Shown here: in pieces, positions 23,896-64,000 of the stretch
Layout of the letters: every line of letters starts with the position of its first letter
How positions within the stretch are numbered: the stretch's first letter is position 1
Assembly: GCF_014212495.1 (NCBI RefSeq)
Contig: NZ_JACKZC010000010.1
Location: 1-64,000, forward strand
DNA: 64,000 bases
DNA from: Pontibacter sp. Tf4
GTDB taxonomy: Bacteria; Bacteroidota; Bacteroidia; Cytophagales; Hymenobacteraceae
Reading direction: 5' to 3'
The notes under the pieces: generated by a model
Seen by the model: the letters and a program-made list of their open reading frames with translations, nothing else
Database searches by the model: none
What the model was told of the DNA's origin: nothing
Made by a program: the position numbers and the translations under genes

Positions 23896-24588
23896 ATGGC
23901 ACGCATCAACGTCATTATTCCGGCTTTTAACGAAGAACAATCCATCGGCAAGGTAGTTTCGGCTATACCTGCGGGACTGGTGGATGAGGTGATCGTGGTG
24001 AACAACAACTCTACTGATGCCACACCCGAAAATGCGCGCGCTGCCGGTGCCACCGTATTGCACGAACCCCGCCCCGGCTACGGCCACGCCTGCCTGAAAG
24101 GAATTGCCTACGCAGCTGCCAAACCAGCCACCACGCGCCCGGACATCATCGTATTTCTGGATGGTGATTTTTCGGATTTCCCGCATGAGCTGCCTGTAGT
24201 TGTGCAACCTATAGTTGATGGCTCAGCGGACATGGTGATCGGGTCCAGGGTGCTGGGTAAGCGCGAAAAAGGCTCTTTGCTGCCGCAGCAACTGTTTGGT
24301 AACTGGCTGGCTACGCAACTGTTGCGCCTGCTCTACGGTGTAAACTATACTGACTTAGGGCCTTTCCGGGCTATAAAGCTGGACACGCTCCTGCACCTGA
24401 ACATGCAGGACCGCACCTATGGCTGGACCGTAGAAATGCAGGCCAAAGCAGCCAGGCAAAAGATACCGTATGCCGAAGTACCGGTCTCGTACCGCAAGCG
24501 CATTGGCAAATCCAAGGTATCCGGTACTATAAAAGGAAGCATACTTGCAGGCTATAAAATAATTTTGACGATATTTAGGTACATGTAG
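23896..24588 (+). CDS. Family 2 glycosyltransferase (dolichyl-phosphate mannosyltransferase-like)
   Basis: I start at ATG 23896 (MARINVIIPAFNEEQSIGKVV); the frame is open to 23746 but that stretch overlaps the divergent peroxiredoxin start. 230 residues: GT-A fold with VIVVNNNSTDAT, FLDGDFSDFP (metal-binding DxD type), GSRVLG, then TDLGPFRAIK, YGWTVEMQAKA. It resembles polyprenyl-phosphate glycosyltransferases without a membrane domain. It probably charges or uses a lipid carrier for the two membrane glycosyltransferases that follow on the same strand (gap 11 bp, then a 4-bp overlap). Confidence 0.88.
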   Translation: MARINVIIPAFNEEQSIGKVVSAIPAGLVDEVIVVNNNSTDATPENARAAGATVLHEPRPGYGHACLKGIAYAAAKPATTRPDIIVFLDGDFSDFPHELPVVVQPIVDGSADMVIGSRVLGKREKGSLLPQQLFGNWLATQLLRLLYGVNYTDLGPFRAIKLDTLLHLNMQDRTYGWTVEMQAKAARQKIPYAEVPVSYRKRIGKSKVSGTIKGSILAGYKIILTIFRYM

Positions 24589-24599
24589 CCCCACTTTTC

Positions 24600-26063
24600 A
24601 TGACATTGGCAGCGACCCTGGTAATAGTGATCTATAGTTTGTGCCTGGCATTTATCTTTTGCTACAGCCTGGTACAGCTTCACCTTACCTGGCTCTACCT
24701 CTACGGGACCAGACAACAACCCAAGCCAACTATAGCTTTTGATGCATGGCCTGCCGTAACTGTGCAGTTACCGGTTTACAACGAGCGTTACGTGGTGGAA
24801 CGACTGCTGGAGGCCGTAGCCGCCTTCGATTACCCAGCTGACAAGCTACAGATCCAGCTATTGGACGACTCTACCGACGACACCACCTACATCATCAGCC
24901 GGAAAATAAAAGAACTTGCTCCAACAGGCATCCAGATCGAACATATCCGGAGAAGGGAACGCACAGGTTTTAAGGCGGGCGCTCTGCAGCACGGTTTACA
25001 AACAGCCACTGGTACGTTCATTGCCATTTTTGATGCCGATTTTACCCCTGCCCCGGACTTTCTGAAACAAACTATAGTTGCCTTTACCAAACCCGAGATT
25101 GGCGTCGTGCAAACGCGCTGGGGACATCTGAACAAGAATTATTCGCTGCTTACCCGGCTACAGGCCTTTGGGCTGGATGCCCATTTTACAATAGAGCAAC
25201 AGGGCCGGAACAATGGCCATTTCTTTATGAACTTTAACGGCACGGCAGGCGTGTGGCGCAAAAGCTGTATAGTAGATGCCGGTGGCTGGCACGCCGACAC
25301 CTTAACCGAAGACCTTGACCTGAGCTACCGGGCGCAGCTGAAAGGCTGGCAGTTTGTATATCAGCAACAAACGGAAGCGCCGGCAGAGCTTCCTGCAGCG
25401 ATGGGCGCCCTTAAATCGCAGCAATACCGCTGGACCAAAGGGGCTGCTGAAACCGCCCGCAAGCACCTGGCAAACGTACTTACCTCTTCCAAAACGATTG
25501 CTCCTAAACTGCATGCCACTTTCCATTTGCTCAACAGTGGGGTGTTTATCTGTGTGCTGCTTACGGCTGTGCTTTCCATCCCGATGCTGTACATCAAACA
25601 CGATTACCCGAACTATAGCTGGCTGTTTAACCTGGGTGCTTTTCTGATCATCAGCCTGTTTTCGCTGGTTTTGTTTTACTGGATTGCGGCAGGTGTTGGT
25701 GGCAAGCGGTCTTTCCGCCAGTTTATTCCTGATTTTCTTTTGTTCCTGAGCATGTCGATGGGGATGTCGTTGCACAACAGTGTGGCGGTGCTGGAAGGAT
25801 ACCTGGGACGTAAAACGCCGTTTATCCGGACGCCGAAGTACAACATTGTGCAGGCGCAGGACAGGTGGCAGCAGAAGATCTATACCTTACCCGGCATTGG
25901 TTTGCTAAGCTGGCTCGAAGGATTGCTGGCGCTGTATTTTGTATGGGGCATCTGGCTTGGCTTCAGGCTGGGGGATTATGGGTTGCTGCCGTTCCATGTA
26001 ATGCTGGCGCTGGGGTTTGGCCTGGTGTTTTGCTATAGTTTAGTGCATAGCCGGAAAGCATGA
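24600..26063 (+). CDS. Membrane family 2 glycosyltransferase (cellulose-synthase-like)
   Basis: 487 residues. One N-terminal membrane helix, then a processive GT2 domain: LLDDSTDD (89-94), DADF (145-148), TEDLD (236-240), QQYRW (274-278), the D,D,D,QxxRW signature. Two to four membrane segments follow (GVFICVLLTAVLSIPM, FLIISLFSLVLFYWIA, LALGFGLVFCYSLV). The fold fits a glycan or glycolipid synthase exporting through the membrane. It stops in ATGA overlap with the next gene, so translation is coupled. The sugar is unknown. Confidence 0.9.
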   Translation: MTLAATLVIVIYSLCLAFIFCYSLVQLHLTWLYLYGTRQQPKPTIAFDAWPAVTVQLPVYNERYVVERLLEAVAAFDYPADKLQIQLLDDSTDDTTYIISRKIKELAPTGIQIEHIRRRERTGFKAGALQHGLQTATGTFIAIFDADFTPAPDFLKQTIVAFTKPEIGVVQTRWGHLNKNYSLLTRLQAFGLDAHFTIEQQGRNNGHFFMNFNGTAGVWRKSCIVDAGGWHADTLTEDLDLSYRAQLKGWQFVYQQQTEAPAELPAAMGALKSQQYRWTKGAAETARKHLANVLTSSKTIAPKLHATFHLLNSGVFICVLLTAVLSIPMLYIKHDYPNYSWLFNLGAFLIISLFSLVLFYWIAAGVGGKRSFRQFIPDFLLFLSMSMGMSLHNSVAVLEGYLGRKTPFIRTPKYNIVQAQDRWQQKIYTLPGIGLLSWLEGLLALYFVWGIWLGFRLGDYGLLPFHVMLALGFGLVFCYSLVHSRKA

Positions 26064-27394
26064 GCGGGGAAAGAAAAACGATAGCAGCTTACGTGCTGTT
26101 AACTATATCGGGTTTGCTGTATGTGGCCCTGGGCTATGCTACGCCCCGCCAAAATTTCACGCAGCTGCTGTTGCTGTTTGCGGGTTGCTTTGCGGTGTAT
26201 GTGTACATCATCAATATCCGGTTTAAACTATGGCATGGCATCGCAGCGGCTGTCCTTTTCAGGTTGTTGTTACTTTTCGCCACGCCCCAGCTCTCCGACG
26301 ATTATTTCCGGTTTGTATGGGACGGGCGCTTGCTGGCTGCCGGCGTAAACCCTTACCTGTATTTACCTTCTCATTTTGTGCAGCAGGGCGCAACTATAGT
26401 TTCAGGCATAACGGACTCGCTTTTTCTGCAGCTCAACTCCCCTGACTACTATAGTGTGTATCCGCCGTTGTCGCAGGCGGTTTTCTGGCTGTCGGTTAAA
26501 CTGTCTCCGGAATGTATAGCGGGCAGCGTGGTAATCATGCGTGTTATACTGCTACTGGCTGAGGTGCTGAACATGCTGCTGCTCCTGCGCCTGCTCCGTA
26601 AAACCGGCCTCCCCGATGGCTACGTGCTGCTTTATGCCCTGAACCCGCTTGTGATACTGGAACTGACCGGCAACCTGCATTTTGAGGCGCTGATGATCTC
26701 CTTTGTGCTGCTGGGCCTGTACCAGCTGTTTTACCACCGGCCGGTTTGGGCAGGTTGTGCGTTTGGGCTGGCGGTAGGTGTAAAGTTGCTGCCTTTGCTG
26801 TTTCTGCCGTTAGTATGGCGTAAACTGGGGCACCGGCAGTTCTTTTATTTTGCGGTAGCGCTGGGGCTTACGTTACTGGTTATTTCTTTCCCGCTTATCA
26901 ACGCCGAGGTTATCGGGCACATCGCCAGCAGCCTGGATCTGTACTTCCGCAAATTTGAATTCAATGCCAGCATTTATTATGTGCTGCGCTGGATCGGCAT
27001 TCAGTTTACAGGCTACAACCAGATAGCTTTTATCGGTCCCCTATTATCTATAGTTACCCTGGTGCTGGTACTATGGATGGCGGCTGTAATTAAACTGGGC
27101 TCGGTAAAACGGCTGATCGGCTATATGGGCGCGGCGCTCACGGTGTACCTACTGCTCACAACCACCGTGCATCCCTGGTACCTGACAACGCTCGTGGCCC
27201 TAACAGCTGCCAGTCTTTTCCGCTTTGCCATTGCCTGGTCGGGTCTGGCCATCCTGAGCTTTTCGGCGTACCGCACACCTACCTATTTCGAAGATACTGC
27301 CCTGATAACGCTGGAATATACGCTGATGCTGCTGTGGTTGCTGGTAGAACTATACCTGTACCGCCAGCGCCGCCAACACGCCAATTTAAAGTAG
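26060..27394 (+). CDS. GT-C type integral membrane glycosyltransferase
   Basis: 444 residues with about 11-12 membrane helices. A first periplasmic loop QLSDDYFRFVWDGRLLAAGVNPYLYLPSHF carries the acidic DD pair typical of lipid-carrier-dependent mannosyl/glucosyltransferases (GT87/DUF2029-like). Later YALNPLVILELTGNLHFE and VHPWYLTTLVALT also fit that group. It would use polyprenyl-phosphate sugars made by the first gene of the cluster. Start ATG overlaps the previous stop. Acceptor unknown. Confidence 0.8.
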   Translation: MSGERKTIAAYVLLTISGLLYVALGYATPRQNFTQLLLLFAGCFAVYVYIINIRFKLWHGIAAAVLFRLLLLFATPQLSDDYFRFVWDGRLLAAGVNPYLYLPSHFVQQGATIVSGITDSLFLQLNSPDYYSVYPPLSQAVFWLSVKLSPECIAGSVVIMRVILLLAEVLNMLLLLRLLRKTGLPDGYVLLYALNPLVILELTGNLHFEALMISFVLLGLYQLFYHRPVWAGCAFGLAVGVKLLPLLFLPLVWRKLGHRQFFYFAVALGLTLLVISFPLINAEVIGHIASSLDLYFRKFEFNASIYYVLRWIGIQFTGYNQIAFIGPLLSIVTLVLVLWMAAVIKLGSVKRLIGYMGAALTVYLLLTTTVHPWYLTTLVALTAASLFRFAIAWSGLAILSFSAYRTPTYFEDTALITLEYTLMLLWLLVELYLYRQRRQHANLK

Positions 27395-29097: not shown

Positions 29098-30234
29098 ATG
29101 GTTTACCGCTGGCTGATACTGCTGCTACTGTTGTTGCCGGGCAGGCTGTTGGCGCAACTACCGGAACCAGCATGGTTACAAACAGAGCGGCAGGCCCAAC
29201 TGATGCAGCAGGCCATCGACCTGTACAGCTGCATTTCCACTACCAATACCTGGTACACTTTGCCTGCAAACCTGCGGCTAAGCCCCGGCGATACAAACCA
29301 ATACGTGCCCAACTTACAACACAACCTGCTGCTCACCCGCGATCTGCAACCCGACTATAGTATGCCTACCACCATTTACGACACCTTGCTGGTGAGTGCC
29401 GCCATGAGGTTTCAGCAACGCCATGGCCTGAAAGCGGACGGGCGCATTGGCCCCAGAACAATTGCAGAACTGAATGTACCACCTGCCCGTCGTCTGCAAC
29501 TGCTCCGCAACAACCTGCAACGCTGGAAAAACACGACCTCCTGCGCTCCGCGGCCTGCCATTTACATCAACATACCAGCCTTTGAACTATACGTGCTGGA
29601 TACTAGCCGCGTGCTGCTACAAATGAAAGTGATCACCGGCAAGCCCGCTACGCCTACCTACCAGATCACCACCGAATTACAGTCTATAGTAGTTAACCCT
29701 ACCTGGAACCTGCCCCGCTCTATTGCCGTGAACGAGATCGTGCCCATTCTGCGGCGCAACCCTAATTACCTGAACAAACGGAACATGCGTGTTTATTTGA
29801 ATGGCCGGCAGATAAACCCCTGGCGCGTGAACTGGAAAGCCGTGAACAGCAGCAACTATAGTTACCAGATCACGCAGATGCCCGGACGGGACAATGAACT
29901 GGGCGAACTGAAGTTTTTGTATGACAGCAAAGTAAACCAGTACATGCACGACACGCCCCGCAAAGAGCTTTTCGACTATTACCCGCGCGATTTCAGCCAT
30001 GGCTGTATTAGATTGGAAAAACCCTACGAGCTTGCACTTTACTTACTGCAGTACCACAATGGTTTTTCTAAAGCAAAAGCCGAAGAACTGCTGCATACCA
30101 GGAAGCCCAACCACTACCTGCACGTGAGAAAGAACATGGCGCTATTTATACTTTACCAGACCGCCTGGGTAGACCAGCATGGCCTGGTGCAGTTCCGGAA
30201 AGATGTGTATGGTTATGAGAAGGTAAACCTATAG
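29098..30234 (+). CDS. L,D-transpeptidase (YcbB/YkuD type)
   Basis: 378 residues: Sec signal (LILLLLLLPGRLLAQ), a peptidoglycan-binding domain (about 75-127, AAMRFQQRHGLKADGRIGPRTIAELN), and a YkuD catalytic domain (153-330) with H284 in YMHDTP and the active SHGCIRL motif (H301, C303). It makes 3-3 crosslinks or attaches proteins to peptidoglycan in the periplasm. Domain order equals E. coli YcbB (LdtD) although shorter. Own transcription unit; convergent with and overlapping the arsenosugar transferase by 6 bases. Confidence 0.93.
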   Translation: MVYRWLILLLLLLPGRLLAQLPEPAWLQTERQAQLMQQAIDLYSCISTTNTWYTLPANLRLSPGDTNQYVPNLQHNLLLTRDLQPDYSMPTTIYDTLLVSAAMRFQQRHGLKADGRIGPRTIAELNVPPARRLQLLRNNLQRWKNTTSCAPRPAIYINIPAFELYVLDTSRVLLQMKVITGKPATPTYQITTELQSIVVNPTWNLPRSIAVNEIVPILRRNPNYLNKRNMRVYLNGRQINPWRVNWKAVNSSNYSYQITQMPGRDNELGELKFLYDSKVNQYMHDTPRKELFDYYPRDFSHGCIRLEKPYELALYLLQYHNGFSKAKAEELLHTRKPNHYLHVRKNMALFILYQTAWVDQHGLVQFRKDVYGYEKVNL

Positions 30235-31351: not shown

Positions 31352-32401
31352 TTAAACAACTGTCTGGCCGCCGCAACTGGAACCTGCCCCTGCCGTGCAG
31401 CCATAGCAGTGCTGGTTTAGCACTATGCTGCGGTTATTCAAAGCCTGCAGGTCAAAATTGCGGATGTGTTGCGGCGCAGTTGGTGCTACGTGCAGTTCCA
31501 GCATCTGGTTAAAGTCGCAGTCGTACAGGTACCCGTCCCACCCTACCGAAATGGTATTACGACACATCACACTGGCAGCAGCAGCCGGGTTAAACGCATC
31601 CACCAGTTTCTCCATATAGCTCTCATAGTTACCACTTTGCAGCAAATACTCCAGGTAACGACTGATGGGCAGGTTGGTAATGCAGAATAATTTATTGAAA
31701 TGGACACTATAGCCAGCCAAAAGGCGACGTTTGAACTCCGCTTCCAGCGTCTGCTGGGCAGCTGGCAGAAAAGCGCCGGAAGGATTATAAACCAGATCGA
31801 GTTGCAGACCTGAGTTTTCAATGCCATAGCCCACTTCGTTCAGCATCTTCAGCGCTTTGATGGATTTTTCGAACACGCCATCGCCGCGCTGTGCATCGGT
31901 ACGGCTGGCCGCAAAGTATGGCAACGATGACACCACCTGTACCTTATGGGCTTTAAAGAATTCCGGCAGGTCGTGGTACTTCGGGTTGGCCAGGATAATG
32001 GTCAGGTTACACCTAACTATAGTTTGCCTGCCCAGTTTCGAGATCTCTTGTACAAACCACCGGAAGTCCGGGTTCATTTCAGGGGCACCGCCGGTTATGT
32101 CAACTATAGCCAGTTCCGGGTTATGCGCCAGCGCATCCAAACAAAGCTGCATGGTTTCGCGGGTCATGATCTCCCGGCGGTCCGGGCCGGCATCAACATG
32201 GCAATGGCGGCAGGCCTGGTTGCACATTTTGCCTACATTTACCTGCAGAATGGTAGTGCCTGTGGGTTTAAGGGGTAATAAGTTATGCTGTTGCAATTTA
32301 TCGGCAAAGGCCGGAAACTGTGCTCCCTGCTGCAATACAGTCAGCTGAAAACCGGCATCAGCCAGCTCATGGTGTTGTTTTTTAAGAGAAGTTACAGGCA
32401 T
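31352..32401 (-). CDS. arsS: Arsenosugar biosynthesis radical SAM protein ArsS
   Basis: 349 residues. Radical SAM cluster motif CNQACRHC (C60, C64, C67) after QVNVGKM, followed by VDITGGAPEMN (GGAP SAM motif). The C-terminal DUF3641-type region has SVGWDGYLYDCDFNQML and ends HCYGCTAGAGSSCGGQTVV with extra cysteines for a second cluster or substrate. ArsS attaches the SAM-derived deoxyadenosyl group to dimethylarsenite, the step that commits to arsenosugars. It starts 2 bases after the AhpD-like gene. Confidence 0.94.
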   Translation of the reverse strand: MPVTSLKKQHHELADAGFQLTVLQQGAQFPAFADKLQQHNLLPLKPTGTTILQVNVGKMCNQACRHCHVDAGPDRREIMTRETMQLCLDALAHNPELAIVDITGGAPEMNPDFRWFVQEISKLGRQTIVRCNLTIILANPKYHDLPEFFKAHKVQVVSSLPYFAASRTDAQRGDGVFEKSIKALKMLNEVGYGIENSGLQLDLVYNPSGAFLPAAQQTLEAEFKRRLLAGYSVHFNKLFCITNLPISRYLEYLLQSGNYESYMEKLVDAFNPAAAASVMCRNTISVGWDGYLYDCDFNQMLELHVAPTAPQHIRNFDLQALNNRSIVLNQHCYGCTAGAGSSCGGQTVV

Positions 32402-32887: not shown

Positions 32888-34252
32888 ATGGCCATCCAAA
32901 CTATGAATCCGGCCACCAACGAGGTGGTTAAAACATTTAAACCGCATACTACCGAAGAAGTTATCCAGAAAATAGAAGCTGCAGATAATGGCTTCCGAAA
33001 ATGGCGCAACACACCCTTTGCCGAGCGCGCTAACCTGATGCAGAAGTGTGCCGACATTCTGGATAACGAGGCCGAAACGTATGGCCGCATCATCAGTCTT
33101 GAAATGGGCAAGCCGCTGAAGGATGGGATTGCTGAAGTGAAGAAATGCGCCCTGGCCTGCCGTTATTACGCCGAAAATGCCGAAGATTTCCTGAAGGATG
33201 AGCTGATTGAGACCAAAGCCGATAAAAGCCTCATCGCTTACCAGCCGCTGGGTGTTATTCTGGCCGTAATGCCCTGGAACTTCCCGTTCTGGCAGGTTTT
33301 CCGGTTTCTGGCGCCAGCGCTGATGGCTGGCAACACCGGTTTGCTCAAACATGCATCCAACGTACCGCAGTGCGCGCTGGCTATCGAAGAAATTGTACGT
33401 AAAGCCGGCTTCCCCGAAGATGTATTTTATACCCTGCTTATCGGCTCAAAAGAAGTGGATGCAGTCATTCAGCACCCGGCTGTAAAAGCTGTGACCCTAA
33501 CCGGAAGCGAAGGCGCCGGTGCCCACGTAGCTGCGACGGCCGGCAAAGAGATCAAGAAAACTGTGCTGGAATTAGGCGGTTCTGATCCGTTTATAGTGTT
33601 AGATGATGCCGACCTGGAACTGGCTGCTGAAAATGCGATAAAATCCAGAATGGTGAACACAGGCCAGAGCTGTATTGCCGCCAAACGGTTTATAGTGGTT
33701 GAAACTATAGCCGACGCTTTCCTGGAAAAGATGAAAGAGAAAATGGCGGCACTAAAAACCGGCGACCCGCTGAAAGACGACTGCGACTACGGTCCGATGG
33801 CACGCCCTGACTTAGCAGAAGAATTAGCAGAACAGGTTAAAAAATCCGTAGCCAAAGGCGCAGAAATAGTGCTGGATGGTGGTCAGGAGAAAAAAGGCAG
33901 CGCTTACTTTAAGCCGATGATCCTGAAAAATGTGAAGCCCGGGATGCCCGCTTACGACGAAGAAATGTTTGGCCCTGTAGCTGCCTTTATAGTTGCCAAA
34001 GACGAACAGGAAGCTATCCGCATCGCCAACGACTCCCGTTTTGGGTTAGCCGGCTCCGTCTGGACGCAGAACCAGGAACGTGGCCTGAAAGTAGCCCGTC
34101 AGGTAGAATCAGGTGCTGTGTTCGTAAATGCCATGGTAGCCTCCACCCCCGAAATGCCTTTTGGCGGCATTAAAAAATCCGGCTACGGCCGCGAGCTCTC
34201 CTACATCGGCATCCGCGAATTCGTCAACCAGAAAAGCATCTGGGTTAGTTAG
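32888..34252 (+). CDS. NAD(P)-dependent succinate-semialdehyde dehydrogenase
   Basis: 454 residues, normal for the short SSADH type. MPWNFPFWQVFR (cofactor/substrate site), LELGGSDPFIVLDDADLE with general-base E228, NTGQSCIAAKRFIV with nucleophile C262, EMFGPVAAFI, MPFGGIKKSGYGRELSYIGIREF. It oxidises succinic semialdehyde to succinate in GABA/4-hydroxybutyrate breakdown. Divergent from the arsenosugar operon. Its stop codon lies in the first half of a long inverted repeat. Confidence 0.92.
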   Translation: MAIQTMNPATNEVVKTFKPHTTEEVIQKIEAADNGFRKWRNTPFAERANLMQKCADILDNEAETYGRIISLEMGKPLKDGIAEVKKCALACRYYAENAEDFLKDELIETKADKSLIAYQPLGVILAVMPWNFPFWQVFRFLAPALMAGNTGLLKHASNVPQCALAIEEIVRKAGFPEDVFYTLLIGSKEVDAVIQHPAVKAVTLTGSEGAGAHVAATAGKEIKKTVLELGGSDPFIVLDDADLELAAENAIKSRMVNTGQSCIAAKRFIVVETIADAFLEKMKEKMAALKTGDPLKDDCDYGPMARPDLAEELAEQVKKSVAKGAEIVLDGGQEKKGSAYFKPMILKNVKPGMPAYDEEMFGPVAAFIVAKDEQEAIRIANDSRFGLAGSVWTQNQERGLKVARQVESGAVFVNAMVASTPEMPFGGIKKSGYGRELSYIGIREFVNQKSIWVS

Positions 34253-35136: not shown

Positions 35137-35272
35137 AAAGGGCTGAAAGTTGAAACCGTACCGCTTAAAAGCTACAACTATAGTTTCAGTCAGTTTCTGC
35201 TTCCGAAACTTGTATGACTATAGTTTCCAGGCAAGATAGGAAAGTATGGCGAAACCTTAAAACAACTATAGC

Positions 35273-38034: not shown

Positions 38035-40482
38035 TTGAAAGTTTGCATTGCTGAAAAACCAAGTGTAGCCCGCGAGATAGCCAACGTAATTGGGGCCAGA
38101 ACCAAGAAGGACGGTTATTTTGAGGGTAACGGCTACCAGGTAACCTGGACCTTCGGGCACTTTTGCCAGCTGCGCGAGCCCGACGACTACCGCCCCGAGT
38201 GGAAGCGCTGGAGCATACACGACCTGCCCATGCTGCCGCAGCAATACGGCATAAAACTGATGCAGGACAGCGGGGTGCAGAAGCAGTTCAGGATCATAAA
38301 ACAACTACTGGACAACGCTGAAGAAGTAATAAACTGCGGGGATGCCGGCCAGGAAGGAGAAGTGATCCAGCGCTGGGTACTGACCGAAGCCAAGTACAGA
38401 AAACCTTTTAAACGCCTTTGGATCTCGTCGCTGACAGAAGAAGCTATACGCCAGGGGTTTGCTAAACTGCGCGAAGGCTCCGAGTTCGATTCGTTGTACC
38501 AGGCCGGTAAAAGCCGTGCTATCGGCGACTGGCTGCTGGGCATGAACGCTACCCGTTTGTTTACCCTGAAATACGCCAACGGCAGCCGCCAGACCTTATC
38601 GATAGGCCGTGTACAAACGCCTACGCTGGCCATGATCGTGAATCGCTACCATGAGATCATGAACTTTGTGCCGCAGCCTTACTGGGAGCTGAAGACCGTG
38701 TACCGCGAGGTAACGTTTGCCAGCACCAACGGACGTTTCCATAAAGAGGAAGATGCACAAAAGATACTGGAAGCCATTAAGCAGGCCGAGCTGACGATAA
38801 CCGATGTAGAGACCAAGAAAGGTACCGAAGCACCGCGCAACCTGTTCGACCTGACCTCGCTGCAGATAGAATGCAACAACAAACTGGGCATGTCGGCAGA
38901 CGAAACCCTGAAAACCGTGCAGAGCCTGTACGAAAAGAAAGTAGTGTCCTATCCGCGCGTTGATACTACCTACCTGCCTGATGACATTTACCCGAAGATA
39001 CCGGGCATTTTGCAGGGGCTGGACAACTATAGACAGGAAGTAGCGCCATTGCTGCAGGACAAGATCCGGAAAACCAAAAAGGTATTTAACAACAACAAAG
39101 TAACCGACCACCACGCCATTATCCCAACCGGTGCCAGTGCCGGCAGCATCTATGGCCGCGAAGCCGATGTGTACGACATCATCACACGCCGTTTTATAGC
39201 TGCTTTTTACCCGGATTGTATTGTGAGCAACACCACGGTTAATGCCGAATCTGCAGGCTATAGTTTCAGGGTTCGGGGCAAGCAGATATTGGAGCCGGGC
39301 TGGCGCGTGCTGTATGGCGCTGAGGATGTGAAGCTGGATAACACGCCAGCTAAAGAAGGCGAAGCCGAAGAAGTAATGGCCGGTGTGCTGCCGCATTTCG
39401 AGAAAGGCGAACATGGTCCGCACGAACCGCTGCTGGAAACCAAAATGACCAACCCGCCTAAAGAGTATACCGAGGCCACCCTGCTGCGCGCCATGGAAAC
39501 AGCCGGTAAACAAATGGAAGACGAAGAACTGAAGGATGCCTTGAAGGAGAACGGGATTGGCCGTCCTTCTACGCGCGCTGCTATCATCGAAACCCTTTAC
39601 AAACGCCAGTACATCCGAAAGGATAAGAAGAAGATAGTGCCTACCCAGATGGGCATTGATTTGATTGGTGTGATCAAAAACCAGACGCTGAAGTCGGCGG
39701 AGATGACGGGGCAATGGGAGAAAAAACTGCGCCAGATAGAAGGCGGCGAGTTTAAAGCCGAAGCCTTTTTGCAGGAACTCCAGAACTTTGTAATAAGCCT
39801 GGTGCAGGAAGTGAAGAACGACAACGCCCGCGTAACCATCGAACCGCAGGCCGCTGCTGCTCCGGCTCCGAAACCAGCAGGTGCTGCCAAAGAGAAAAAG
39901 GCAAAACCGGCAAAAGAGAAACCTGCAGCGCCAACGCAAGGCCTTGGCTCCTGCCCTGCTTGCCAGCAAGGCTATATTGTTAAAGGCTCGTCGGCGTATG
40001 GCTGTATCCGCTACAAAGAGGGCTGCCGCTTTTTAATACCTATTGAGCAGTATGGCAAACCTCTGAACGAAAAACAGGTAACCGCCCTGCTCACCAAAGG
40101 CAAAACACCAACTATAAAAGGACTGAAAGGCGCCGATGGTAACAGTTTTGACGGCATACTGAAACTGAACGGACAACAACTACAGGTAGAGATAGCACCT
40201 AAAAAAGCAGAAACCGACCCGTTTGCCACCTGCCCGCGCTGTAAGCAAGGCAAATTGCTGAAAGGGAATACAGCTTACGGCTGCAGTCGCTTTAGGGAGG
40301 GCTGCCAGTTTAAAGTACCGTTCGAGATCGGAAGCAAAACCTTATCTGAGAAACAGATTGCCACGCTGCTTACCAAAGGCAAAACAGGGAAGATAAAAGG
40401 CTTTATATCGCCTAAGACCGGAAACGCTTTTGAAGCTGCCCTGGCTTTAAACGATGAATGGAAGGTTGTATACCAGTTTTAA
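38035..40482 (+). CDS. topB: DNA topoisomerase III
   Basis: 815 residues. The start is a TTG right after a CTATAG palindrome; no upstream ATG is in frame. Toprim domain (KVCIAEKPSVAREIANVIG; NCGDAGQEGE), type IA core with active Tyr306 in VVSYPRVDTTYLP (the usual YPRTDS has V and T here), LQIECNNKLGMSADETL, and GIGRPSTRAAIIETL. A Lys/Ala/Pro linker leads to two C-terminal zinc modules (CPACQQGYIVKG...GCRF; CPRCKQGKLLKG...GCQF). It relaxes and decatenates single-strand-containing DNA. A strong terminator follows. Confidence 0.95.
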   Translation: MKVCIAEKPSVAREIANVIGARTKKDGYFEGNGYQVTWTFGHFCQLREPDDYRPEWKRWSIHDLPMLPQQYGIKLMQDSGVQKQFRIIKQLLDNAEEVINCGDAGQEGEVIQRWVLTEAKYRKPFKRLWISSLTEEAIRQGFAKLREGSEFDSLYQAGKSRAIGDWLLGMNATRLFTLKYANGSRQTLSIGRVQTPTLAMIVNRYHEIMNFVPQPYWELKTVYREVTFASTNGRFHKEEDAQKILEAIKQAELTITDVETKKGTEAPRNLFDLTSLQIECNNKLGMSADETLKTVQSLYEKKVVSYPRVDTTYLPDDIYPKIPGILQGLDNYRQEVAPLLQDKIRKTKKVFNNNKVTDHHAIIPTGASAGSIYGREADVYDIITRRFIAAFYPDCIVSNTTVNAESAGYSFRVRGKQILEPGWRVLYGAEDVKLDNTPAKEGEAEEVMAGVLPHFEKGEHGPHEPLLETKMTNPPKEYTEATLLRAMETAGKQMEDEELKDALKENGIGRPSTRAAIIETLYKRQYIRKDKKKIVPTQMGIDLIGVIKNQTLKSAEMTGQWEKKLRQIEGGEFKAEAFLQELQNFVISLVQEVKNDNARVTIEPQAAAAPAPKPAGAAKEKKAKPAKEKPAAPTQGLGSCPACQQGYIVKGSSAYGCIRYKEGCRFLIPIEQYGKPLNEKQVTALLTKGKTPTIKGLKGADGNSFDGILKLNGQQLQVEIAPKKAETDPFATCPRCKQGKLLKGNTAYGCSRFREGCQFKVPFEIGSKTLSEKQIATLLTKGKTGKIKGFISPKTGNAFEAALALNDEWKVVYQF

Positions 40483-43172: not shown

Positions 43173-43195
43173 GAAGCAGTAACTATAGTTTATAA

Positions 43196-50774: not shown

Positions 50775-50874
50775 TTGTAGCCGCTTGGGTTTAACTATAG
50801 TTTACAGGTGCCAGGCGTTTCAGGTTGTTCGTTATTGATTGATTGCTGATTGTTGATAGTTCTTAAGAGTCTGC

Positions 50875-50983
50875 ATTCATAATTCATAATTCATAATTCA
50901 TAATTCATAATTCATAATTCATAATTCATAATTCATAATTCATAATTCATAATTCATAATTCATAATTCATAATTCATAATTC
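50875..50983. repeat. Heptamer tandem repeat (AATTCAT)
   Basis: 14 complete copies of AATTCAT (50881-50978) with partial units on both sides. The array ends exactly at the stop codon of the SDR gene. Seven bp is not a multiple of three, but it is non-coding. Length polymorphism by slippage is expected. Confidence 0.97.
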
Positions 50984-51850: not shown

Positions 51851-51868
51851 ATAGTGATCAAACTATAG

Positions 51869-52180
51869 TTATCGTTTATCCAGTTGGCGTTTCAACTTTT
51901 CTGAAACATTATCCAGCAGCTGGTACCAGTTATCGCCTTCATCATGGGCAAACACATCGTTGCCAGGCACACCCACGCGCATGCGCACACTTTTCTGGTT
52001 TGTGGCCTGGTTTGCTTCCTCTTTAAAATAAACATCCACCGAGTCTATTTTGGTACCATGGCGCTTCAACTTTGTAATTATCTCGCGGATGTTCTGCTGG
52101 ATGGTGTCGGGAATTTCAATGTCTACCGCTTGTATGTCTAATTTAATGCCTTCAAAGTTCTCTGTGTAGTTCATATGCAT
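51869..52180 (-). CDS. HPF/RaiA-family ribosome-associated protein
   Basis: 103 residues (M3 is an alternative start). Core IKLDIQAVDIEIPDTIQQNIREIITKLKRHGTKIDSVDVYFKEE...VRMRVGVPGNDVFAHDEGDNWYQLLDNVSEKLKRQL follows the beta-alpha-beta-beta-beta-alpha pattern of HPF, with the FAHDEGDNWYQLLD segment conserved. Short type without the dimerisation tail. It hibernates or stabilises ribosomes. Confidence 0.88.
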   Translation of the reverse strand: MHMNYTENFEGIKLDIQAVDIEIPDTIQQNIREIITKLKRHGTKIDSVDVYFKEEANQATNQKSVRMRVGVPGNDVFAHDEGDNWYQLLDNVSEKLKRQLDKR

Positions 52181-56179: not shown

Positions 56180-58690
56180 ATGAAAACACTGATAAAAACG
56201 CCTGTTAAAACCGAGCTCAACCTGAAGCTTATCGGTGTAGGGCTGATTATAGTTTCCTTCCTGTTGTTTATGCTTCCGGAGTGGGGCGTCGGGGCAACCG
56301 ATGAGGCTTCGTTTGGACTCTTCTGGATGAACTATAGCCTGACTGCCGTTTACTTTGTTGTGATGTTATCCAAGGGAGTATTTTCCTTTAAACGGCCTTT
56401 CCGGCACTTGGAATACCTTTATCTCTACCTGGTACTTTTTATCATCAGTTGTTACGCGCTTAACCGCCAGATGAGCATTTTCCAGGATTCTGTTCCCTGG
56501 CTCGAAGCTTTTATCACACTTTTCTGCGTAACCCTGATGGCCTATAGTTTCCGGGAGCTGTTACCGAAAAAACTGAACCAGGTGCTGCTCTTTGTACTTG
56601 GCGCCGGATCTGTGCTGTGGTTATACTATGCCATTTACCTGTTGCCACTTTACATCATCAGTATTTTCGGGGTGCTGGCCTTGGGCATGTCGTTACACAC
56701 CTATGTTCCGCTTTGGGTTGCAATATGCCTGGGAGTTGGGGTATATAAAGCCGCAACTGAGGACAGGCAATACCTGCGCACTTTTGTGGCTGGTGCCGCT
56801 TTCCCTGTTCTTTTCGGCATCTTTTACATCTGGCAATGGCAAAACCGTAACGAGCAGCTCGCCTTTAGCGGTAACGATTATGTGATTCAGGAAGATGAAA
56901 CGCTGCCACGCTGGGTAAAATTAAGCCAGCAGTTACCAGCCGATTACCTGACCGAACGCATATTAAAGACCGACCTTGTTTACCAGGTTCCTACTGGTGA
57001 GTTCAGTATGTGGGATATGCCCCGAGAGAATTTTGAGGAAGTAAAACGCCACGACCCACTTGTGAGTTTAGCGGTGCTGTTGCTGGGCGAACCAAACCTG
57101 GACAGGAAAGAGAAGATTAAAATACTGGAAAGCATATACGACGCGCGGCACCAGGCCGAGGAGCGGCTTTGGTCGGGTAATAACCTGAAAACAGCCAATG
57201 TAGTGTCGCAGGTGCGCATTTACCCGAACTATAGACTTGCCTACACAGAGAAGGTGCTAAGCGTGCATAACAACATGGCGCACAGCAATAACCAGCAGGA
57301 AGCAATCTATACCTTTTTCCTGCCCGAAGGCAGCGTAGTGACGTCGCTCTCGCTCTGGATAAACGGCCGAGAAGAGAAAGGCTACCTCACTACCAAAAGC
57401 AAAGCACAAACCGCTTACAAAACTATAGTTGGCGTTGAAGCCCGCGACCCATCGGTAGTGCATTGGCAGGAAGGCAACAGGGTATCGGTAAGAGTTTTTC
57501 CGTGCACCCCGGAAGAAAACCGCCAGTTTAAGATTGGGATTACCTCTCCCCTTCAGCAGCAGGGCGAAGCGCTTGTTTACCAGAACATTTACTTTACCGG
57601 ACCAAGCACACTGGGCGCTACTGAAACATCTGTGGTGTATCTGGATGAGAATGTAAACGGCCTTGAATTACCCTCAAACTATAAACTTACGCGCAGCAAC
57701 ACATACAAACGCCAGGGAAACTATAGCCAGGACTGGAGCCTGCGATTTAACGCTCCTGCCTTAGCGAACAGCAGTTTCAGCTTTGCCGGCAACAACTATA
57801 GTTTAACCGAACTGCCGCAACAGCTTGTACCATTTGAGCCACAGCAACTCTACCTGGACATAAACACCAGTTGGTCGGAGAATGAATTTGAGCAGGTATG
57901 GGATATGGCAAAACAAAAGCCGGTGTATGTGTGGGATGGGAAAATGGTGCAACTGAACGAGCAGAACAGGGCAGAACTATTTAGCCTGCTGCAACAGCAA
58001 CGCTACTCCCTCTTCCCGCTACACATGATCAAAAACCCGGAGCAGGCACTGGTCATCAGTAAAAGTAACGGTGTATCTCCTAACCTCAGCGACCTGAAAG
58101 ATACCCCATTTGCAGAACAGATGGCAGAAATTTTGCCGCAACATGCAACTATAAGCGTGTTCTCGCTTGGCGAAAAGTTATCGCCCTACTTTAAGAGCCT
58201 GAAAGAATTACGGGTAATTGCTCCTTTGCACGGCGACACTAAACAACTGGCTACACTACTGCAGAACAAGCAGTTTATCAACACAACTATAGATCATAAC
58301 ACCGTTCGCCTGGGACAGTCCGGGCTGGCTATAGTTAAAACAAATGCAACTATAGCCGGCGGCACAGCGCCAGACCATGTTCTGCGGCTGTTTGCTTATA
58401 ACCACGTGCTGCAGCAGATCGGGGCACGGTATTTCAGTAAGGATTTTATAGAAGATGCGCTGATCGCAGAAGCCACCCAGGCCAATATTGTAAGTCCGGT
58501 ATCCAGCCTGATCGTGCTGGAAACACAGGCAGATTACGAGCGCTTCGATATCCAGAAAAGTAAAGCCAGCCTGGGCAATGCCAGCATGAACGGCTCGGGT
58601 GCGGTACCGGAACCGGAAGAATGGGCACTCATTATCCTGGCTGCACTGATCATTGGGTATTTCACCTTAAAACCATACTTCCTGAGATGA
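56180..58690 (+). CDS. XrtN-system VIT domain protein with PEP-CTERM tail
   Basis: 836 residues. Seven or so N-terminal membrane helices (1-225), then a VIT-type domain (about 335-470, RLAYTEKVLSVHNNMAHSNNQQEAIYTFFLPEGSVVTSLSLWINGREEKGYL; VSVRVFPCTPEENRQFKIGI) and a beta-rich remainder. The C-terminus VPEPEEWALIILAALIIGYFTLKPYFLR is a PEP-CTERM sorting signal: PEP box, hydrophobic helix and basic end. Known pairing: this protein and exosortase N form a dedicated two-gene system. Its stop overlaps the exosortase start (ATGA). Confidence 0.9.
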   Translation: MKTLIKTPVKTELNLKLIGVGLIIVSFLLFMLPEWGVGATDEASFGLFWMNYSLTAVYFVVMLSKGVFSFKRPFRHLEYLYLYLVLFIISCYALNRQMSIFQDSVPWLEAFITLFCVTLMAYSFRELLPKKLNQVLLFVLGAGSVLWLYYAIYLLPLYIISIFGVLALGMSLHTYVPLWVAICLGVGVYKAATEDRQYLRTFVAGAAFPVLFGIFYIWQWQNRNEQLAFSGNDYVIQEDETLPRWVKLSQQLPADYLTERILKTDLVYQVPTGEFSMWDMPRENFEEVKRHDPLVSLAVLLLGEPNLDRKEKIKILESIYDARHQAEERLWSGNNLKTANVVSQVRIYPNYRLAYTEKVLSVHNNMAHSNNQQEAIYTFFLPEGSVVTSLSLWINGREEKGYLTTKSKAQTAYKTIVGVEARDPSVVHWQEGNRVSVRVFPCTPEENRQFKIGITSPLQQQGEALVYQNIYFTGPSTLGATETSVVYLDENVNGLELPSNYKLTRSNTYKRQGNYSQDWSLRFNAPALANSSFSFAGNNYSLTELPQQLVPFEPQQLYLDINTSWSENEFEQVWDMAKQKPVYVWDGKMVQLNEQNRAELFSLLQQQRYSLFPLHMIKNPEQALVISKSNGVSPNLSDLKDTPFAEQMAEILPQHATISVFSLGEKLSPYFKSLKELRVIAPLHGDTKQLATLLQNKQFINTTIDHNTVRLGQSGLAIVKTNATIAGGTAPDHVLRLFAYNHVLQQIGARYFSKDFIEDALIAEATQANIVSPVSSLIVLETQADYERFDIQKSKASLGNASMNGSGAVPEPEEWALIILAALIIGYFTLKPYFLR

Positions 58691-60039
58691 AGTTAACTGC
58701 TGTAAGGCCTACAGAGCAATGGCTGATTCCGCTGCTGGTCATGAGTCTGTATTTGCTGGCTGGTGGTTTTCTGCTGGGCGAGTACCTGCTCTGGGACAGC
58801 CAATGGTTACTGGCCTTGGTACTTGTGCCTTTTGTAGCGCAGGTACAGCCGCAAAAGGCACTCTCCTCATCGCTGTTGATTGCAACTATAGTTCTGGCCA
58901 TTGTTGCCACCACGCTGCAAAACAGCACCTTATATTTCTTTGCATTTGTAGCAGCACTCTGGTGTGGCGCGCAGCTTATAGTTGGCAGAATCTCCATTTA
59001 TCCCGTGCTTTTGCTTGCAGTAGCCTCGCCTATCTTTAAGTACATCGCCAACATCATCAGTTTCCCGCTCCGGATGGAGTTAACTACCTGGGCTGTGTGC
59101 ATCCTTAACACGATGGAGAAACAGGCCGAAGCTGCCGGTAACATCATCCTGGTAAATGGTGAAGAGTTCTCTGTAGATCCGGCTTGTGCTGGTTTGTCGA
59201 TGCTGTCGCTGGCCCTGATCCTGGCTGTTTTTATTTTGGCGCACCTGCAGAAGACCTATCAGAGAAAATTTCCGCTCTGGTTTATTGGCCTGATGCTGGG
59301 CTTTATGTTGTTCCTGAACCTGGTATCAAACTTACTGCGCATCCTGTTGCTGGTTTGGTTTAAGATCCTGCCCGGAAACCCGCTTCACGATGTGATAGGC
59401 TTGCTTTGCTTGCTGGCTTATGCACTGGTGCCCTTTTATTTCACGGCAAAAAGGCTGCAACAATACCTATCTGAAACAACTACAAATGCAGCGCGGAAGT
59501 CAACTGTCAGTTTAAGAGGCTCCTTACTGCTGAACTATCTGCTACTGCTTTTGATGACCGGAATTGGGCTGACAGTAAAACGAGATAAACCCGAGATGGT
59601 ACTGGAACAAACTATGCCGCAGCTAAACGGTTTTCAGGTAGCCACGCTGGGGAACGGGGTTACCAAATACAGCAACGAAAACGTATTGGTCTACCTGAAA
59701 CCGGTGCAGGCTTTTTACTCTACGGAACATCACCCGTTAATCTGTTGGGAAGGAAGCGGCTACAAGTTCAGACATGTGCAGCAGCGGCAGGTGGGCAACT
59801 ATACCGTGTATGTGGGCGAGTTACAAAAAGGGAACGACACCCTTTACACGGCATGGTGGATGGATAACGGGCAACACAAAACGATAGACCAATGGGACTG
59901 GCGCACGCGCATGCTGAAAGGGGAAGCGAAGTTCAGGCTGGTAAATGTTACGGTTGCGCAAAAAAAAGAACTGCCCGAAGCTATAGTTACTGTTATAGAA
60001 AGCCAAAACAACTATAGCCACGCAAGCACAATGCAATAA
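58687..60039 (+). CDS. xrtN: Exosortase N (XrtN)
   Basis: Start ATG 58687 overlaps the VIT gene; the frame extends to 58621 but inside that gene. 450 residues, about 9 helices. Catalytic residues of exosortases: C167 in DPACAGLSM, R218 in SNLLRILLL, H234 in NPLHDVIGLL. A periplasmic C-terminal extension of about 150 residues follows (from KRDKPEMVLEQTMPQLNGF), as in the N type. It cleaves and processes the PEP-CTERM tail of the neighbouring VIT protein. Last gene of the long operon. Confidence 0.93.
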   Translation: MKLTAVRPTEQWLIPLLVMSLYLLAGGFLLGEYLLWDSQWLLALVLVPFVAQVQPQKALSSSLLIATIVLAIVATTLQNSTLYFFAFVAALWCGAQLIVGRISIYPVLLLAVASPIFKYIANIISFPLRMELTTWAVCILNTMEKQAEAAGNIILVNGEEFSVDPACAGLSMLSLALILAVFILAHLQKTYQRKFPLWFIGLMLGFMLFLNLVSNLLRILLLVWFKILPGNPLHDVIGLLCLLAYALVPFYFTAKRLQQYLSETTTNAARKSTVSLRGSLLLNYLLLLLMTGIGLTVKRDKPEMVLEQTMPQLNGFQVATLGNGVTKYSNENVLVYLKPVQAFYSTEHHPLICWEGSGYKFRHVQQRQVGNYTVYVGELQKGNDTLYTAWWMDNGQHKTIDQWDWRTRMLKGEAKFRLVNVTVAQKKELPEAIVTVIESQNNYSHASTMQ

Positions 60040-60987: not shown

Positions 60988-61020
60988 TGTTCTGTAACTA
61001 TAGTCCAGTCTACTTTTGCT

Positions 61021-62054: not shown

Positions 62055-62055
62055 A

Positions 62056-62469: not shown

Positions 62470-62850
62470 GAGTTTTAATTTTACACGAAAGTATAAACTC
62501 TGCCCTTCCGGTCAAAATGCGTTATCCGTTGGTCGTTAATCGTTGTTTGCAGACACTTTCATTTTAATTAAATAAAAGAATGCTCCGGCCATTTAAACTA
62601 TAGTTTCATAGCAGACTTGCCGATTATTTTTCCCCTTGGGTTTTACAGCGAGCAACCAGCAACAGACAACGACCAACAATACTTAAAACATCGACCAAAA
62701 TCTCATCGGTTTCTTATGCCTTTTTATATAGAAATGCGGTGCATTGGTATAATCTGTTTTAGCAGGTCGCAAATGCTCTGTTTCTTTGTAGTGTGGAGTT
62801 CGAAGTACCCCGCGTGGTTGGATTTTTAAGAACATTTCCGATAAAAAACT
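62470..62850. other. Intergenic region with one full palindrome and ACAACGACCAAC repeats
   Basis: 380 bp. AACTATAGTT at 62596-62605. A pair of related low-complexity pieces, CGTTGGTCGTTAATCGTTG (62527) and ACAGACAACGACCAACAA (62662), face each other and look like dispersed-repeat remnants. The receptor promoter should lie in the last 100 bp, but no consensus stands out. Confidence 0.45.
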
Positions 62851-64000
62851 ATGAAGAGACACGTATTATTGTTAGCCCTTGGCCTGTCGTCGGCCACTGC
62901 ATTTGCGCAGGGGCAGGCAGCACCCCAGGGTCGTGCGGCACAGCAGCCGGCAGCTACCATGCCGGGCGCAACTATAGCCAAAGGTAACGCCAAAATAAGC
63001 GGTGTGGTGTTAGATGCCGACACCAAAAGCCCGGTAGAATTTGCTACTGTAGCCCTTGTAAGCGTAGCTACCGGCAAACCTGTAGATGGCACCATGGCCG
63101 ATGAGAAAGGCCGTTTCACGATTCAGAAGGTAGGTGCCGGCAACTATAAGCTGCTGGTTTCCTTTATCGGGTATGAGCAGAAAACACTGGCCGCGTTTAC
63201 CGTTAAGTCTGACAACGACGATGTGAACCTGGGCAGCATTACCCTAACCTCCAGTGCTCAGAAACTGACCGAAGTAGTGGTGACCGGCGACAAGCCGCTG
63301 GTAGAAGAGAAAATAGACCGCACCGTTTACAACGCCGAAAAAGACATTACCAACGCCGGTGGCAACGCCGCCGATGTACTGCAGAAAGTACCGTCGCTGT
63401 CGCTGGATAACGATGGCAACGTGCAGCTGCGCGGTAGCTCCAACGTGCGTGTGCTTATCAACAACAAGCCTTCTGCTATCATGGCCGGCAGCATCGCCGA
63501 TGCCCTGAAGCAGATCCCGGCCGACCAGATCAAATCGGTGGAAGTGATCACATCGCCATCTGCCAAGTACGATGCCGAAGGTACAGCCGGTATCATCAAC
63601 ATCATCACTAAAAAAGACGGTGGCCTGCAGGGTGTTACAGGATCGGTAGCACTTACGGCCGGTACCCGTGCCAGCAACGGCAATGCCAGCGTAAATGTGC
63701 GCCGCGGCAAGCTAGGCATTAATGCCAACATCGGAGCGCACACGTTCTACAACAAAGGCGATATGACCAACGTGACAGCTGCACCGGGTTATGTAACGCC
63801 ATCCGTTGACCGCCGCGTTACCAGCCAGTCCGGCGATACGCAGATAAACGGAAGATTCCTGAACGGCCAGTTCGGATTTGATTACGACTTTACGCCTAAG
63901 AACACCCTGTCGGGTAGCATACGCAGCAACGGTGGTCGGTTTAATATGGAAAATGACCAGCAACAACTGGTAACCAAGGGCGGTGTTGAGGATGCTGTAA
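62851..64000 (+). CDS. TonB-dependent receptor, outer-membrane beta-barrel family (C-terminus outside window)
   Basis: Frame from ATG 62851 open to the window edge. Sec signal MKRHVLLLALGLSSATAFAQ, carboxypeptidase-regulatory-like domain (about 50-130, ISGVVLDADTKSPVEFATVALVS...YKLLVSFIGYEQKT), then a plug with TGDKPLVEEKIDRTVYNAEKDITNAGGNAADVLQKVPSLSLDNDGNVQLRGSSNVRVLINNKPSAI and VEVITSPSAKYDAEGTAGIINIITKK. This is the barrel family (PF14905-type) of Bacteroidota receptors that lack the SusC partner. Substrate unknown. Confidence 0.92.
   Translation, partial: MKRHVLLLALGLSSATAFAQGQAAPQGRAAQQPAATMPGATIAKGNAKISGVVLDADTKSPVEFATVALVSVATGKPVDGTMADEKGRFTIQKVGAGNYKLLVSFIGYEQKTLAAFTVKSDNDDVNLGSITLTSSAQKLTEVVVTGDKPLVEEKIDRTVYNAEKDITNAGGNAADVLQKVPSLSLDNDGNVQLRGSSNVRVLINNKPSAIMAGSIADALKQIPADQIKSVEVITSPSAKYDAEGTAGIINIITKKDGGLQGVTGSVALTAGTRASNGNASVNVRRGKLGINANIGAHTFYNKGDMTNVTAAPGYVTPSVDRRVTSQSGDTQINGRFLNGQFGFDYDFTPKNTLSGSIRSNGGRFNMENDQQQLVTKGGVEDAV

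Follow-up and report, generated by a model that had tools for sequence, protein, structure and literature searches.

Chi words are short, non-palindromic, species-specific and over-represented, and are polarised with respect to the replication strand, while DNA uptake sequences (DUS) concentrate in intergenic DNA, frequently as inverted pairs at terminators. The DUS of the Neisseriaceae fall into dialects that keep a fixed core (CTG) and follow the species tree, some relatives having no DUS (PMC3630211), and in Neisseria the DUS content sets integrative elements apart (PMC7371117). Other described words are HIP1 and the alternate highly iterated palindromes (HIPs), which take different forms in some relatives (PMC4390886), and the TAACTGA direct repeats of Beggiatoaceae and some Bacteroidetes, of which one genome has 169 sets, mostly just upstream of start codons (PMC4679880). 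Here we describe a word, AACTATA, that is highly iterated in a 64,000-nucleotide stretch of Pontibacter sp. Tf4 (positions 1 to 64,000 of contig NZ_JACKZC010000010.1; hereafter the window) and that has dialects across the genus Pontibacter (Bacteroidota, Hymenobacteraceae). The source genome, G000 in our numbering, has 4,452,287 bases, and among 80 named loci the TopB proteins nearest to that of the window were those of P. fetidus and P. populi (both 92%) and P. burrus (90%). The genus-wide dialects are the main new point and lay beyond what an initial annotation, made from the letters of the window, could see.

That annotation had reported about 80 copies of CTATAG in the last 40 kb of the window and at least twelve of the complete palindrome AACTATAGTT, where it expected 10 and 0.04, respectively. 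Exact counts between positions 23,900 and 64,000 were 81 and 12, the twelve palindromes all lying at the coordinates it had given, and a first-order Markov model gave similar expectations (8.15 and 0.04). Over the whole of G000 there were 1,477 copies of AACTATAGTT versus 4 of the reversed pattern used as a control. Under a maximal-order model of the window, however, AACTATAGTT was not in excess given its own 8- and 9-mers (12 versus 11.4 expected; CTATAG, 81 versus 64), and this lack of excess over its sub-words was a first sign of a shorter iterated unit. In 440 kb of G000 (400 kb of contig C1 plus the window core) AACTATA, or TATAGTT on the other strand, had 1,254 both-strand copies versus 65 expected, and TATAGTT with a left side matching AAC at no position still occurred 345 times versus 27.3 expected. 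The base that follows AACTATA is preferentially a purine (AACTATAG in 775 of the 1,254 copies, AACTATAA in 339), and its flanking bases carry at most 0.03 bit of information; genome-wide, AACTATA(A/G) had 11,475 copies on the two strands versus 355 for the reversed control. AACTATAGTT is formed by one AACTATA unit overlapping another on the opposite strand, and by our estimate independent enrichment of single units would predict approximately the observed fraction of double sites. The palindrome was rejected as the unit on three counts: 10-mer variants with one change that leaves TATAGTT intact stay enriched, variants altered in the shared TATA drop to 0–6 copies versus ~1 expected, and sister clades carry AAGTATAR or AGGTATAR(GC) words, such as the non-palindromic AGGTATAGC. 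Since the half-site is enriched beside an unrelated left side and the sister clades are non-palindromic, the palindromic unit of the initial annotation was not borne out. Its restriction of the motif to core chromosome agreed with the DNA that we sampled, as the first 23.9 kb of the window held 11 CTATAG and no AACTATAGTT, and C1 300–350 kb held 49 AACTATA versus 148–182 in each of the six preceding 50-kb bins. If mobile, these two motif-poor stretches would parallel the DUS-atypical elements of Neisseria (PMC7371117); the one in the window contains long open reading frames (ORFs) of 1,777 and 1,140 aa and is possibly an acquired island.

Counting against expectation in relatives as well, a check already proposed from the window, showed that the strong excess in G000 is accompanied by dialect variants elsewhere in the genus. 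AACTATAGTT itself was in clear excess in four of 37 genus genomes (G000, 1,477; G030, 1,164; G026, 330; G032, 232), the remaining 33 having 0–28 copies each. A scan of the 80 named loci without a preset word found a relative of AACTATA in 27 of the 34 Pontibacter loci. Three had AACTATA (P. fetidus, P. burrus, and P. populi), 14 had AAGTATA (including P. arcticus, P. mucosus, P. chinhatensis, and P. flavimaris, with P. harenae weak), and 10 had AGGTATA(GC) (including P. lucknowensis, P. indicus, P. ramchanderi, and P. amylolyticus). No word was found in six loci (P. ummariensis, P. qinzhouensis, P. beigongshangensis, P. silvestris, P. diazotrophicus, and P. pamirensis), and locus E15-1 had GGTATAA. 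The common word is A-[A/G]-[C/G]-TATA-[A/G], with clades differing at positions 2 and 3, e.g., AACTATAG in the AAC dialect, AAGTATAA in AAG (P. mucosus), and AGGTATAGC in AGG (P. ramchanderi).

When both strands of whole genomes were counted and set against the reversed control, 50 members of the genus gave the same three dialects. At a ratio cut of 9, which we picked after the counts were known, AACTATAR passed in 7 genomes, AAGTATAR in 23, and AGGTATAR in 12, making 39 carriers: four with AAC only (G000, G030, G060, and G066), three with mixed AAC and AAG (G026, G032, and G065), 20 with AAG only, and 12 with AGG. Motif-rich genomes have ~3,100–11,500 copies each, e.g., 9,637 AAGTATAR versus 178 control in G013 and 6,872 AGGTATAR versus 228 in G009, the weakest case above the cut being AACTATAR in G032 (4,582 versus 484). 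G028, with 5,567 AGGTATAR genome-wide, belongs to the AGG dialect, and sat in the pool labelled NONE of the specificity comparison below (20 of its 295 kb) and in the NONE group of the ATPase tree. Smaller excesses occur below the cut: AAGTATAR is raised ~5-fold in AAC genomes (1,373 versus 280 in G000), AACTATAR 4.8-fold in G071, and AGGTATAR 6- to 8-fold in G026, G031, G032, and G071. In sampled 100-kb regions of G026 and G032, viewed in 5-kb steps, the AAC and AAG words are both spread throughout; being evenly intermixed, they suggest genomes in an intermediate or relaxed state and not mosaics. Eleven genomes fell below the cut (G002, G007, G023, G024, G025, G027, G033, G036, G064, G068, and G069), with weak excess in G036 (AGG, 1,825 versus 252) and G007 (AAG, 2,019 versus 421). 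Six pools of motif-poor lineages (22 to 127 kb) yielded no replacement word, their best scores being 4.1–11.9 where the same method gave 54.7 for an AGG and 90.9 for an AAG reference, a search in which a weaker word could be missed. Among 390 genomes of the order (19 Pontibacter and 371 others), strong ARSTATAR enrichment was confined to Pontibacter, with ratios of 14.6 in G000 and 4.9 in the weakest motif-rich member (G011) versus ~2.4, by eye, in the highest other genome (G087, 1.2 Mb).

The dialects, with their conserved core, largely follow phylogeny in two single-gene trees. In the tree of TopB from named species, the members with AAC group as a single clade (100/99) adjoining an AAG species and the AGG species form another (100/100), with word-less species scattered in several places. 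In the tree of one ATPase from the 50 genomes, the seven AAC-bearing genomes, mixed ones included, form one clade (100/100) in which G026 lies beside G060 and G000, and G032 and G065 lie beside G030 and G066; 10 of the 11 genomes labelled AGG form a clade (100/100) with G028 and G067, both AGG by count, the eleventh (G036) being placed outside it.

We compared individual sites over 21.6 kb of the window (27.5–49.1 kb) with P. burrus (L010), P. fetidus (L009), and P. populi (L033), dropping sites that could not be aligned. The exact word was kept at 26/36, 18/30, and 16/30 coding sites, respectively, versus fractions of 0.24, 0.20, and 0.18 for all coding 7-mers and 0.15–0.16 for flanking 7-mers; in this one stretch, coding word sites are kept between species ~3 times more often than other 7-mers. 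A site in an aldehyde dehydrogenase gene (33703) has switched dialect in place, each of the twelve species in the alignment shown reading the word of its own dialect: AACTATA in P. burrus, P. fetidus, and P. populi, AAGTATA in all seven AAG species, and AGGTATA in both AGG species. A site in the topoisomerase gene (39259) is a partial switch, with AACTATA also in P. burrus, AAGTATA in P. fetidus (an AAC species), L014, and L019, and AGGTATA in L021 and L032; the word is not intact in P. populi, L011, L028, L017, L027, and L073. More generally, AGG species had AGGTATA at 2–3 of 21–23 aligned window sites, and AAG species had AAGTATA at 2–3 of 12–22, L019 having AACTATA at 6/20. Since most sites are not common to different dialects, turnover is real as well. 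For specificity, we compared the dialect sets with each other, which removes shared codon use. The perfect word stood above the reference sets 17.9-fold in AAC, 9.9-fold in AAG, and 6.8-fold in AGG, whereas single-mismatch words in the AAC set reached 0.6–3.1-fold; AAGTATG (5.4-fold in the AAG set) and AGGTATG (3.5-fold in the AGG set) were also raised. An 18-fold excess would correspond to a scaled advantage of about 3, i.e., to weak, near-neutral drive or selection over thousands of sites.

We put at roughly 40% the probability that weak drive maintains AACTATA and its relatives as self-recognition words, their likeliest use being DNA uptake or exchange. They would then be, at that same likelihood, a functional analogue of the DUS dialects in a genus without type IV pili, with a putative reader and a putative uptake step. 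A lineage-specific, sequence-specific DNA-recognising protein would read the word, and DNA bearing it would be slightly favoured at each uptake or exchange within the species. The weak drive (18-fold, with a nearly all-or-none preference at genome level) would build up copies where proteins and promoters permit. If the specificity of the reader shifted by one base, the whole genome would follow, perhaps through a relaxed AA[C/G]TATA stage such as is still seen in three genomes, and loss of the reader would let copies decay to background. The DUS dialects are the nearest precedent, and several traits are shared. Like the DUS of the Neisseriaceae, the Pontibacter word is short and non-palindromic, occurs in thousands of copies on both strands, and has dialects that vary around a fixed core (here TATA), follow the tree, and leave some relatives word-less (PMC3630211). 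It differs in length (7–8 bp versus at least 10 bp) and in copy number, the Pontibacter range given above standing against 2,245 and 3,269 DUS in two genomes (PMC3630211). Unlike DUS, moreover, it comes from a genus in which we found no type IV pilus motor. Besides the counts and the two trees, this reading draws on the sharp specificity of the word, its independence of codon use, its lack of chromosome-wide polarity, the retention of coding sites, the switches in place, the even mixture of AAC and AAG in G026 and G032, the motif-poor stretches, the transformability of a Bacteroidota species, and the presence of ComEC in all 50 genomes.

Another explanation, that the word merely follows from codon usage or from a single dispersed family of intergenic repeats, is largely refuted, and we give it next to no weight. 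Sense copies do outnumber antisense copies in G000 genes (418 to 209), and sites are denser close to repeats (13.3/kb), but shuffling synonymous codons within 261 sampled G000 genes (greedy ORFs, as are all our gene calls, not annotations) left 62.5 and 16.2, respectively. The AAG set had 158 sense and 200 antisense copies versus 23.8 and 19.1 after shuffling, and the AGG set had 75 and 141 versus 5.8 and 18.9. Enrichment within genes is independent of codon usage, a feature of the DNA. It follows too that one codon pair, named in advance by the initial annotation as a possible trivial cause, does not account for the word; nor does one dispersed repeat, its other candidate, given the low information of the flanks and the 6.5 sites/kb that persist in repeat-free intergenic DNA. 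Its description of genic copies in several frames together with intergenic copies was supported. In G000 the density was 1.85/kb in genes and 7.5, 6.0, and 16.4/kb in tandem, divergent, and convergent intergenic regions, respectively, the tandem regions having 91 copies along the gene direction and 88 opposite; in the AAG set it was 1.55 in genes versus 4.75/kb between them, and in the AGG set 1.22 versus 4.30/kb, intergenic DNA carrying 3–5 times more copies overall. In each of the dialect sets examined, about 15–17% of all ATA codons fall within copies of the word, versus 3/589 in species without it. Part of the intergenic excess is held, by eye, in REP-like, G+C-rich inverted-repeat mosaics with word-rich spacers. 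Such mosaics occur at 49240–50100 of the window and in many intergenic regions of C1 and G030, some spacers having AACTATA at offsets 0, 8, and 20. Inverted pairs other than the 10-bp palindrome were mostly below simulated numbers, and pairs flanking terminators were seen by eye. As a 7-mer with tandem copies between genes and a patchy distribution, the word recalls the TAACTGA repeats, although it differs from them in having >10,000 copies, genes included (PMC4679880).

The likeness to HIP1 drawn in the initial annotation stood in part: the Pontibacter word is of similar style, a highly iterated short word with other words in some relatives, whereas the HIP unit is palindromic and comes with methylases of matching specificity (PMC4390886), and the Pontibacter unit is neither palindromic nor tracked by the two methylase families searched. 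A bias of mutation or repair linked to a methylase specific for the word, after the proposal for cyanobacteria (PMC4390886), would account for that style and for the replacement of one word by another, which has a parallel in the cyanobacterial genomes where other words replace HIP1 (PMC4390886). We nevertheless consider it very improbable, as the word is non-palindromic and 7–8 bp long, its positions are retained in genes, and neither methylase family follows the AAC-bearing genomes. PF01555 was present in 31/50 genomes, including G026 and G065 and none of G000, G030, G032, G060, and G066; PF07669 had some match in 47/50 and a strong one (E below 1e-20) in 24/50, among the AAC-bearing genomes only in G000 and G065. 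Both were rejected as candidates in a search that did not extend to PF00145, PF02086, or PF02384. With PF01555 absent from 5/7 and PF07669 strong in 2/7 AAC-bearing genomes, the methylation site that the initial annotation had offered as an option looks unlikely as far as these two families go.

The word is like Chi in being short, non-palindromic, species-specific, and over-represented, and a Chi-like recombination signal read by AddAB, with changes in AddB giving the changes of dialect, could be supported by the presence in 50/50 genomes of an AddB-like PDDEXK protein (PF12705; 967–1,018-aa ORF), which by its profile match is a candidate AddB. The intergenic copies in C1 0–150 kb also favour the leading strand suggested by GC skew (110 to 52 without palindromes). 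This bias may be caused by one-sided repeat mosaics, however, and it was gone in C1 200–300 kb (51 to 52). No leading-strand bias was seen in the intergenic DNA of the single-contig genome G030, sampled chromosome-wide as 25 tiles of 20 kb (500 kb; 218:205 without palindromes and 273:263 with them). Unlike Chi, then, the word has no chromosome-wide strand polarity and is denser between genes than inside them. Motif-poor genomes, in whose sampled DNA no replacement word was found, have the AddB-like protein too, and overall we regard a Chi-like role as unlikely.

A more serious rival, of a kind that the initial annotation had also suggested and that we would still call somewhat unlikely, is an abundant lineage-specific nucleoid protein for which thousands of weakly selected sites organise the chromosome, the dialects reflecting changed DNA contacts. 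In its favour, the word has a density of 2.93/kb in the AAC set, more than an uptake signal seems to need, it is enriched outside genes, near-miss words are little enriched, and copies were present in every one of the 25 G030 tiles (11 to 87). Direct-repeat spacings of 7–8, 12, and 19–21 bp are favoured too, but by eye a single spacer pattern that recurs in the REP-like mosaics seems to produce most of this signal. Against it, loss of the word in 11/50 genomes would need repeated loss of a global chromatin protein, the specificity is in our judgement sharper than expected of such proteins, and no candidate was found, nucleoid-protein families not having been among those searched.

Several observations count against a self-recognition word for uptake or exchange. 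A PF00437 search of the 50 genomes found no convincing ATPase of type IV pili or type II secretion; each genome had a weak partial match (38–66 profile positions, at most 25.9 bits), just above the cut-off in 3/50, so the known uptake-sequence machinery seems absent, and a genus that yielded no type IV pilus motor is not expected to have a ComP-type receptor. Uptake by type IV pili was rejected on these matches, minor pilins not having been searched for. ComEC (PF03772) was found in 50/50 genomes; it is thus present in all 11 motif-poor ones and does not separate them from the motif-rich, and in two motif-rich genomes, G009 and G021, its frame has a stop. The literature that we searched held no data on transformation in Pontibacter. 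Aligned intergenic sites were kept at 3/11, 2/10, and 2/10 in P. burrus, P. fetidus, and P. populi, versus backgrounds of 0.29, 0.14, and 0.19, i.e., not clearly above them, and the density between genes, 6.5/kb even outside repeats, is more than an uptake signal would seem to need. Even spacing, as a repair or uptake rule would give, was not seen; site dispersion among genes was 1.96 in G000, 2.04 in G030, 1.25 in AAG, and 1.33 in AGG (over-dispersed throughout), and there is the local strand bias of C1 0–150 kb described above. Nor is dialect strictly clade-bound, G036 (AGG-like) and G006 (AAG) lying outside their groups in the ATPase tree; that AAG is not one clade, with G006 apart, is as expected if AAG is ancestral.

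Bacteroidota can transform, which speaks for an uptake signal: in Riemerella anatipestifer the process depends on ComEC, DprA, ComF, and RecA, together with four proteins unlike any of the known machinery, and DUF5689 occurs in a Riemerella competence protein (PMC8459023). DUF5689 (PF18942) was found in 22/50 Pontibacter genomes, in a 413–450-aa ORF in 12 and a 1,099–1,299-aa ORF in 10. As a reader it was rejected, and this too weighs against an uptake signal, as the distribution of the gene is unrelated to that of the word, and the motif-poor G002, G007, G024, G033, and G064 are among the genomes with the long form. The one long protein scanned, that of G001, looks like a secreted nuclease, and the short gene of G000 adjoins SusD, PLD, calcineurin-like, GDPD, and GDSL genes. 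In that locus (L241, G000:C3, 4838–15543) a SusD-like gene is followed by the DUF5689, PLD, calcineurin-like, GDPD, and GDSL genes, and is preceded by a 1,081-aa ORF whose counterparts in L243 and L247 are SusC-like; the cluster is likely to serve phosphodiester scavenging.

Our scan of Hymenobacter loci (~22 kb each, a few shorter) required both sense and antisense excess, added intergenic excess, and took scores above 11, a threshold of our own choice. Seven of 34 loci (L064, L074, L075, L078, L081, L084, and L063) had over-abundant words of their own: CTAGGCC, ACCTAGC, ACCTAGG, CCCTAGG, GCTAGCC, GGGCCCC, and, marginally, CTACCCC. CTAG lies inside five of the seven, GCTAGCC having one intergenic copy. 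Among neighbouring genera 1/12 loci passed (L041, AAATATT). In L041, from Adhaeribacter rhizoryzae, AATATT occurred 58 times versus 16.6 expected in 22 kb, and in L057, from Hymenobacter lucidus, five TACGCGCGTA in 22 kb were all intergenic.

To return to self-recognition, it is possible, though doubtful as a whole, that Pontibacter uses a 7–8-letter code with dialects and a putative reader, that this would be the first signal of the uptake or exchange type in Bacteroidota, that genomes have been caught switching from AAG through AA[C/G] to AAC, that the word was lost several times independently, and that some Hymenobacter may use CTAG-centred codes. We found no description of the word, or of an equivalent in Pontibacter or Hymenobacter, in the open-access literature searched, which lacks most subscription papers; among the literature matches to AACTATAGTT that were listed, nearly all were titles on malaria drug resistance, which we took as primer matches. 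With its >10,000 copies, its imprint on intergenic DNA, and 15–17% of ATA codons inside it in the gene sets tested, the word is a large, apparently undescribed force on these genomes, and dialects, intermediates, and losses within one genus make the origin, switching, and decay of such words directly testable. As an uptake tag, it would amount to a sequence barrier to gene exchange in Bacteroidota and offer a route to the receptor; as a chromatin word, it would bring a major nucleoid protein to light.

Table 1. Features of the window, and ComEC frames interrupted in two other genomes.
Feature	Position	Strand	Basis or remark
Motif-poor stretch, 5 AACTATA (both strands), no AACTATAGTT	1..23899	.	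counts
Motif-bearing chromosome, 128 both-strand AACTATA	23900..64000	.	counts
AACTATAGTT, two overlapping AACTATA units on opposite strands	25070..25079	.	exact match
AACTATAGTT double site	26392..26401	.	exact match
AACTATAGTT double site	29854..29863	.	also in P. burrus; absent from P. fetidus, P. populi
AACTATAGTT double site inside minus-strand ORF	32015..32024	.	exact match; also in P. burrus; P. fetidus differs at one base; sequence dissimilar in P. populi and aligned other-dialect species
AACTATA in aldehyde dehydrogenase gene	33703..33709	+	alignment; Pfam Aldedh
AACTATAGTT double site	35176..35185	.	outside ORFs of at least 150 aa
AACTATA within topoisomerase gene	39259..39265	-	alignment; Pfam Topoisom_bac
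AACTATAGTT double site	43181..43190	.	outside ORFs of at least 150 aa
REP-like G+C-rich inverted repeats (by eye), AACTATA-rich spacers, no ORF of at least 150 aa	49240..50100	-	
AACTATAGTT double site	50793..50802	.	exact match
AACTATAGTT double site	51861..51870	.	exact match
AACTATAGTT double site	57421..57430	.	exact match
AACTATAGTT double site	57794..57803	.	exact match
AACTATAGTT double site	58884..58893	.	exact match
AACTATAGTT double site	62596..62605	.	exact match
Stop codon inside ComEC match	G009:C76:160505-161305		
Stop codon inside ComEC match	G021:C1:2771217-2771876		

Two further arrays of short words were seen. Locus L159 (G039:C1:1-20000) has 218 both-strand copies of GAGTACTC in 20 kb, probably a repeat array, and positions 50875–50987 of the window hold ~16 near-perfect head-to-tail copies of the 7-mer ATTCATA.

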